This document shows positions 25,497-26,552 of a stretch of 32,153 nucleotides of DNA, in pieces (within the stretch, counting starts at the first letter, position 1; every line of letters begins with the position of its first letter). Under the pieces are notes generated by a model. It saw only the letters and a list, made by a program, of their open reading frames with translations. It did no database searches and was not told where the DNA came from. Both the position numbers and the translations under genes were made by a program. This stretch comes from an uncultured Bacillota bacterium (GTDB lineage: Bacteria > Bacillota > Clostridia > Christensenellales > UBA1242), in contig CAMRTM010000001.1 of assembly GCA_947053645.1 (NCBI GenBank), positions 73,430-105,582 on the forward strand, given 5' to 3'.

Positions 25497-25525
25497 AGAT
25501 TTCTCCGCACCGGTCTAATTGACAG
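25497..25525 (+). repeat. Family 1 repeat, minimal copy
   Basis: agatttctccgcaccggtctaattgacag, between two terminator hairpins. Confidence 0.85.
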
Positions 25526-25545
25526 TGCCTTAGGCACTTTTTTAT
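25524..25545. terminator. Hairpin with T-run fused to the family 1 repeat
   Basis: AGTGCCTTAGGCACTTTTTTATT. Confidence 0.75.
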
Positions 25546-26552
25546 TGATTAGTTCTCAGTTTTTCTATCTCTCCCCGCGCGAGAGCGTCACAGCGGTTAT
25601 TTAGTTCATTATCAGCATGACCTTTCACTTTATGCCAAACAACGCTATGTCTTTCAGTTTGCACTAACAGCCGTTTCCATAGGTCAATATTTTGTACTTC
25701 TTTATTTCCGCTTGTACGCCAGTTATTCTTTTGCCACGAACCTATCCAGTCCTGCAAAAAGGCATTGACCACATAGGCAGAATCGCTATAAACATCTACC
25801 TCGCAGGGCTCTTTTATCTTCTCTAAACTTACTATTACCGCCATAAGTTCCATTCGATTATTAGTAGTTTCTTTTTCTCCGCCTGAAATCTCCTTTTCTT
25901 GATTTCCATAGCGAAGTATCCCCGCCCAGCCTCCAAGCCCCGGGTTGCCTGAGCATGCTCCGTCCGTATACAAAATTATCTTTTTACCTGTGCCAGATCC
26001 TTCGACTACGCTATCGCTTCGCTCAGGATGACAGATGGATTCGCAAGATCCTTCGACTACGCTTTTGCTTCGCTCAGGATGACAGTTGAGAGGCTGCGAA
26101 GACTTGGATTTCTCCACTACGCCTTCGGCTTCAGTCGAAATGACAGAACGAGAGTTTGTCGATATGACAGAAACTTTTATTTTTTCCGCCAAGGTTTTTA
26201 AATCATTTCCTATCTTTGGATATGTTTTATATATATCTTTTCCATCATCCTTTCGGCGTGGAAAGATGTGCATATGAAAATGTGGTATCATTTCATTAAC
26301 ATTCATTAGATTAACGCTATCATAACCACATTTCTCTGTGTAATGCCTAGATACTAATTGTACGGTGTTCATAACATGAGCAAGGTCGGCTTTAGGACAA
26401 TCTATCACATTATGGCAATGTTTCTTTGGAATAACAAGAGTATGTCCCTCTATATCATCCGCAATATCTAAGAAGGCAAGAGTATCTTCATCCTCATAGA
26501 TTTTATAACTTGGAATTTCCCCTTTAACAATTTTACAGAAAATACAATCCAT
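25542..26552 (-). CDS. HIT-family hydrolase / RNase HI fusion protein with repeat-encoded linker
   Basis: N-terminus MDCIFCKIVKGEIPSYKIYEDEDTLAFLD...HFHMHIFPRR (HIT HxHxH); C-terminus KIILYTDGACSGNPGLGGWAGILRYG...ETTNNRMELMAVI...KVKGHADNELNNRCD (RNase HI). One continuous frame. Confidence 0.9.
   Translation of the reverse strand: MDCIFCKIVKGEIPSYKIYEDEDTLAFLDIADDIEGHTLVIPKKHCHNVIDCPKADLAHVMNTVQLVSRHYTEKCGYDSVNLMNVNEMIPHFHMHIFPRRKDDGKDIYKTYPKIGNDLKTLAEKIKVSVISTNSRSVISTEAEGVVEKSKSSQPLNCHPERSKSVVEGSCESICHPERSDSVVEGSGTGKKIILYTDGACSGNPGLGGWAGILRYGNQEKEISGGEKETTNNRMELMAVIVSLEKIKEPCEVDVYSDSAYVVNAFLQDWIGSWQKNNWRTSGNKEVQNIDLWKRLLVQTERHSVVWHKVKGHADNELNNRCDALARGEIEKLRTNQ
25995..26170 (+). repeat. Family 1 repeats inside a CDS: three full copies plus one half-copy
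   Basis: agatccttcgactacgctatcgcttcgctcaggatgacag (25995-26034); agatccttcgactacgcttttgcttcgctcaggatgacag (26046-26085); ggatttctccactacgccttcggcttcagtcgaaatgacag (26106-26146); gtttgtcgatatgacag (26154-26170). Confidence 0.95.

Follow-up and report, generated by a model that had tools for sequence, protein, structure and literature searches.

Dispersed repeats at the joint of a HIT–RNase HI fusion protein in an uncultured lineage of Clostridia

How do two neighboring enzyme genes become one, and what part do repeats play when they lie exactly at the joint? The question arises from a 32,153-nt stretch of DNA (the window; contig CAMRTM010000001.1 of assembly GCA_947053645.1) from an uncultured bacterium of the UBA1242 lineage, in which one reading frame encodes a HIT domain and an RNase HI, and the DNA between them consists largely of a short repeat. 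Did the repeat fuse two genes, or was it tolerated or expanded in a linker, the two readings offered in the initial annotation?

Two enzymes in one frame

The following features define the locus:

25542–26552, minus strand: hit-rnhA fusion ORF, 336 aa (open reading frame and Pfam domains)
26172–26552, minus strand: HIT domain region, residues 1–127, histidine triad HFHMHIF intact (Pfam PF01230 and pLDDT)
25545–25988, minus strand: RNase HI domain, residues 189–336, catalytic D/E/D/H/D intact, own start codon absent near its beginning (Pfam, NCBIfam and alignment)

The ORF had been described as a single uninterrupted frame for a HIT domain followed by a complete RNase HI, and so it is: it runs for 336 codons without a stop and matches Pfam HIT (PF01230, residues 10–101, E = 1.9e-19) and RNase_H (residues 190–328, E = 1.8e-40). 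The C-terminal part scores as a ribonuclease HI equivalog in NCBIfam (206.7 bits, cut-off 160), and the product has what defines each family: a HIT domain with its histidine triad, and an RNase H domain with the catalytic D, E, D, H and D. In the AlphaFold2 model of the window protein, pLDDT is mostly 75–98 in the HIT region.

Across the three fused species considered below (the window species and its two closest relatives, G183 and G205), the triad and the RNase H catalytic residues are preserved and dN/dS for the two domains is 0.03–0.06, an approximate value since dS is saturated; these sequence comparisons indicate that purifying selection still acts on both. The triad is retained in most of the 86 loci from the same genus. 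In a few fused proteins (e.g., L102), its second or third histidine is replaced by C, S, E or D; there, the HIT domain may be losing its activity.

A linker made of repeats

Between the two domains lie a half copy and three full copies of the repeat, and a degenerate copy follows the gene:

25989–26171, minus strand: linker, residues 128–188, largely repeat-derived (pLDDT and repeat positions)
26158–26169, minus strand: repeat half copy TGTCATATCGAC, 24 nt upstream of copy 1 (pattern match)
26107–26145, minus strand: repeat copy 1, TTTCGAC type, read VISTEAEGVVEKS in phase 2 (homologous to the single copy in G205, L032)
26047–26084, minus strand: repeat copy 2, CCTGAGC type, read CHPERSKSVVEGS in phase 0 (pattern match)
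25996–26033, minus strand: repeat copy 3, CCTGAGC type, read CHPERSDSVVEGS in phase 0 (pattern match; repeat family D16)
25498–25541, no strand assigned: degenerate repeat copy and AGTGCCTTAGGCACT hairpin (hairpin 25524–25538), directly downstream of the fusion ORF, between convergent genes (window repeat and folding analyses)

The initial annotation had counted three full copies and a half-copy, read in more than one phase with none adding a stop, in a linker of about 45 residues. The mapped coordinates and the phases (2 and 0) agree with it, and the linker length is corrected to about 60 residues. Every copy is read in a phase without stops; in its two remaining phases, the linker has 3 and 4 of them. 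Copies 2 and 3, which both read as CHPERS.SVVEGS in phase 0, form an in-frame tandem pair with a spacing of 51 nt (17 codons) and 91% identity. In the AlphaFold2 model, residues 134–188 have pLDDT below 50 between confidently modeled flanking domains, and the linker is predicted to be disordered.

The repeat across the genome

The repeat unit spans 27–51 nt and has the form TGTCATYYYGAS...RRRATC. This pattern matches 59 times in the 874-kb window genome (G000) and its reversed control not once, so the repeats are not due to chance. Their surroundings were examined in 180 kb of contig C1 and in eleven additional stretches of G000. In the 180 kb of C1, the fusion ORF is the only clear gene with repeats well inside; the remaining overlaps are with short opposite-strand ORFs, with the very 5′ end of one ORF, or with a chance loose match. 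The repeat is otherwise intergenic, as the initial annotation noted for the window. G183 has 96 copies, G205 has 21 and G167 has 24, and a pattern search of congeners found none in G119 or in most of the genus.

What kind of element is this? The three linker copies fold no better than shuffled sequence (z-scores −0.39, 0.77 and −0.93), and RNA folding finds no stable stem-loop with terminal inverted repeats in them; with no folding signal and no Rfam family, the idea that the repeats are RNA structures was rejected. A RAYT/Y1 transposase was likewise rejected as their mobilizer: Y1_Tnp is found in none of five genomes by a search that was positive in five control genomes, an absence that is not absolute because the genomes are drafts. 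The repeat ends carry no GTAG or CGTC tag, the copies running TGTCAT...RRRATC, and neither the repeat strings nor the encoded peptides matched anything in the open-access literature.

The copies have regularities of their own. A 5′ half copy lies 23–45 nt upstream in 27 of the 53 G000 copies listed, and in several G000 repeats flank and half copy are clearly tandem-duplicated, as if by slippage. The G-rich strand (local GC skew) carries 50 of these 53 copies and all 28 copies in three G183 and G205 stretches (L138–L140), and the C1 repeats hold to it even between oppositely running genes. This polarity fits insertion or slippage tied to replication direction; G160, in which repeats on both strands are mixed within one contig, is a counter-example. 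The repeats often adjoin a GTGCCTAAGGCAC-type hairpin resembling a terminator (25524–25541 in the window and several intergenic copies).

Separate and fused genes in one genus

Comparing the locus in related genomes, the check proposed in the initial annotation, found both states. Among draft assemblies of 101 genomes of the genus and a family-wide sample, hit and rnhA adjoin in each of the 86 congeneric loci in which the pair was detected and classified, 44 of them fused and 42 separate; none of 25 rnhA loci from other genera has a hit gene within 1.5 kb. Separate junctions are tight: the genes overlap (e.g., in ATGA or TTGA) or are parted by a single in-frame stop with ATG after it, and the rnhA Shine-Dalgarno (SD) motif often lies within the last hit codons. 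The two neighbors are apparently coupled in translation in this genus. A start codon with an SD motif is found near the RNase HI domain in 37 of the 42 separate loci vs. 3 of the 44 fused ones (Fisher p = 3e-15); by this comparison, fusion coincides with the disappearance of the stop codon of hit and of both the start codon and the SD motif of rnhA.

Are repeats the usual bridge? In 41 other fused congeners the linker has no apparent repeat, and fused linkers elsewhere look unrelated to it (e.g., ELYFEDEK..DYSKYAEE). Repeat insertion as a general cause of fusion in the genus is not supported.

No report of a HIT–RNase HI fusion was found in the open-access literature searched. The family holds other RNase HI fusions: an ASCH–RNase HI ORF (L136), and RNase HI joined to an N-terminal region of ~140–160 residues without an identified domain (L132–L134). 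RNase HII (PF01351) has no match in G059 and G160, both near-complete congeners; the other five genomes searched have one.

The order of events in the window lineage

A tree built from the HIT and RNase HI domains, with the linker left out, requires at least six fusion/separation changes (5–7 among bootstraps; two are required by the strongly supported branches alone). One ancient fusion, with every fused locus in one clade, is rejected (p-AU 0.0012), and so is a union of the window clade and the large fused one (p-AU 0.0215). The nesting around the window is well supported, (L033 separate, (L034 separate, (L001, (L031, L032) fused))): G167 has separate genes, G119 is next and also separate, and the window species, G183 and G205 are fused, with all relevant branches starred. 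In G167 and G119, hit and rnhA lie in the same frame with one stop between them; these sister-species junctions read HIT-TAA-ATA-ATG and HIT-TAA-ATG. The comparison supports derivation of the fusion from separate adjacent genes in this lineage.

The fused species differ in their linkers. In G205 the linker is homologous to the window one (TNSRSVISTEAE) and bears a single repeat copy in the same position; the window species has two CCTGAGC-type copies besides copy 1; the G183 linker is loosely similar (an N.RSV.S stretch), with no clear repeat. The initial annotation had offered two readings, fusion of two genes by repeat insertion or expansion of repeats within a linker: for the window lineage these data support both in succession, fusion at a repeat-bearing junction and later expansion, and the 41 repeat-free fused congeners tell against insertion as the general cause.

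Repeat insertion at the coupled hit/rnhA junction, followed by expansion, is probably the best account for the window lineage. The steps are as follows: (i) comparison with the relatives shows that hit and rnhA started out separate, in the same frame, with one stop and one start codon between them; (ii) a short dispersed repeat (TGTCATTTCGAC...GGAGAAATC) would have entered the junction in a phase without stops, the repeat and its flanks taking the place of the stop codon of hit and of both the ribosome-binding motif and the start of rnhA; (iii) the comparison also shows that the two genes formed a single ORF by the time of the ancestor shared by the window species, G205 and G183; (iv) the window species would later have gained the second repeat type and duplicated it in frame (51 nt). 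In the product, a flexible linker that tolerates sequence change would tether a HIT hydrolase to an RNase HI. We infer the insertion event itself from three genomes. The repeat need not have caused the fusion, since congeners have fused without it.

Could the fusion have come first? The stop between the in-frame genes would have been lost by point mutation or a small indel, and repeats would then have inserted and expanded in a neutral linker. Most of the at least six changes on the tree have repeat-free linkers, a single stop codon parts the two frames in the sister species, and the G183 linker lacks a clear repeat; because other members of the genus fused the genes with no repeat involved, the one here may also have come into a pre-existing linker. 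This order of events is nevertheless rather unlikely: the tree does not make G000 and G205 sisters, yet their repeat-bearing linkers are homologous, which probably places the repeat already in the last ancestor of all members of the fused clade, and no repeat-free fused outgroup to G000, G205 and G183 is known.

Are two proteins still made? RNase HI would then start within the linker or by reinitiation, and the open frame would be incidental. One codon could serve:

26115–26117, minus strand: candidate internal start at GTG codon 146, within repeat copy 1 and preceded at 4 nt by AAGG (sequence reading)

The SD-like AAGG favors this codon, and coupled initiation appears to be the rule in relatives with separate genes, but the AAGG–GTG spacing is short, and although synonymous divergence is saturated, none of the three fused relatives has lost the open frame. 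The earlier view that no plausible SD and start exist for a separate rnhA stands in part: in G000, G183 and G205 the seven codons preceding the RNase HI domain include no ATG, GTG or TTG, and GTG 146 is a candidate farther upstream in the window species. With G205 and G183 offering no such nearby start, separate synthesis of RNase HI is very unlikely. An assembly or base-calling artefact is hardly credible: repeats are classic sites of collapse, but the fused frame recurs in the assemblies of three different species with differing linkers, the linker copies are not identical (copies 2 and 3 match at 91%), the two domains keep a common frame, and fusion is seen in 41 more congeners.

The favored reading is that the linker acts as a tolerant tether of one working protein, because dN/dS is low, the catalytic residues are kept, the linker pLDDT is below 50 and no start codon lies near the RNase HI domain. 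The repeats in it are most likely tolerated passengers, at a place where added residues cost little, and not a functional module.

Known repeat and fusion systems

Small repeats of Rickettsia and enterobacteria occur in frame inside ORFs (PMC2229807). The closest parallel, already drawn in the initial annotation, is with the Rickettsia palindromic elements (RPEs), as a review describes them (Ogata et al., 2000, as reviewed in PMC2229807): like the window repeat, they are short, dispersed, open-phase repeats found in frame inside conserved protein genes and tolerated by the protein. The window repeat, too, is both intergenic and in frame in a gene, with 59 genomic copies, three of them here. 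RPEs carry inverted repeats at their ends, and most reported cases lie within single genes; the 27–51-nt window unit, by contrast, occurs between genes except here, where it connects two enzyme genes that were once separate. The analogy thus holds for an in-frame dispersed repeat in an ORF and is weak on structure, because the copies fold no better than shuffles. Many intragenic REPs sit in replication and repair genes and may be harmless in flexible linkers (PMC3733652); RNase HI is such a gene and the window insert lies in a linker, but the window repeats lack the GTAG/CGTC end tag, and no Y1/RAYT transposase was found in five genomes. In-frame intragenic repeats are already known; the window case is a new variation.

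RNase HI is also joined to a second catalytic domain in the bifunctional RNase H/acid phosphatase family (PRK07238), in which RNase H sits at the N-terminus. Here it is C-terminal and the partner domain is unrelated; the match to PRK07238 is far below the cut-off (19.6 of 326 bits, profile positions 2–83 of 378).

Why join a HIT hydrolase to RNase HI?

Joined in one protein, the two enzymes would be made in equal amounts, which coupling may already have roughly ensured before fusion. A functional link can be sought in eukaryotes, where aprataxin, a HIT-fold hydrolase, acts downstream of RNase H2 on adenylated RNA-DNA junctions, according to one account of the pathway (PMC6996501; Tumbale et al., 2014 as cited there). 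The likeness is a HIT-fold hydrolase and an RNase H in one pathway; the differences are that these are separate eukaryotic proteins, that aprataxin is a HIT/zinc-finger protein and that RNase H2 is not RNase HI. The window protein was rejected as an aprataxin: Pfam gives only HIT-type and RNase_H domains, and the linker is predicted to be disordered. By analogy, the two domains might act in succession on one class of substrates, for instance RNA-DNA junctions that are adenylated or nucleotide-capped, and so parallel aprataxin/RNase H2 in bacteria, a doubtful proposition. If true, it would explain the gene coupling and the repeated fusion in the genus, here by way of a repeat-made linker.

In this small gut Clostridia genome, repeats at the junction of hit (encoding a HIT-family nucleotide hydrolase) and rnhA encode a floppy 60-residue linker. 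The locus offers a natural stepwise case of repeats lying precisely where two enzymes have recently been joined into one protein, and related species show the unfused state, a single copy and three copies. The pairing of HIT with RNase HI, which within one genus has switched at least six times between the fused and the separate state, points to a candidate functional link between the two enzymes.
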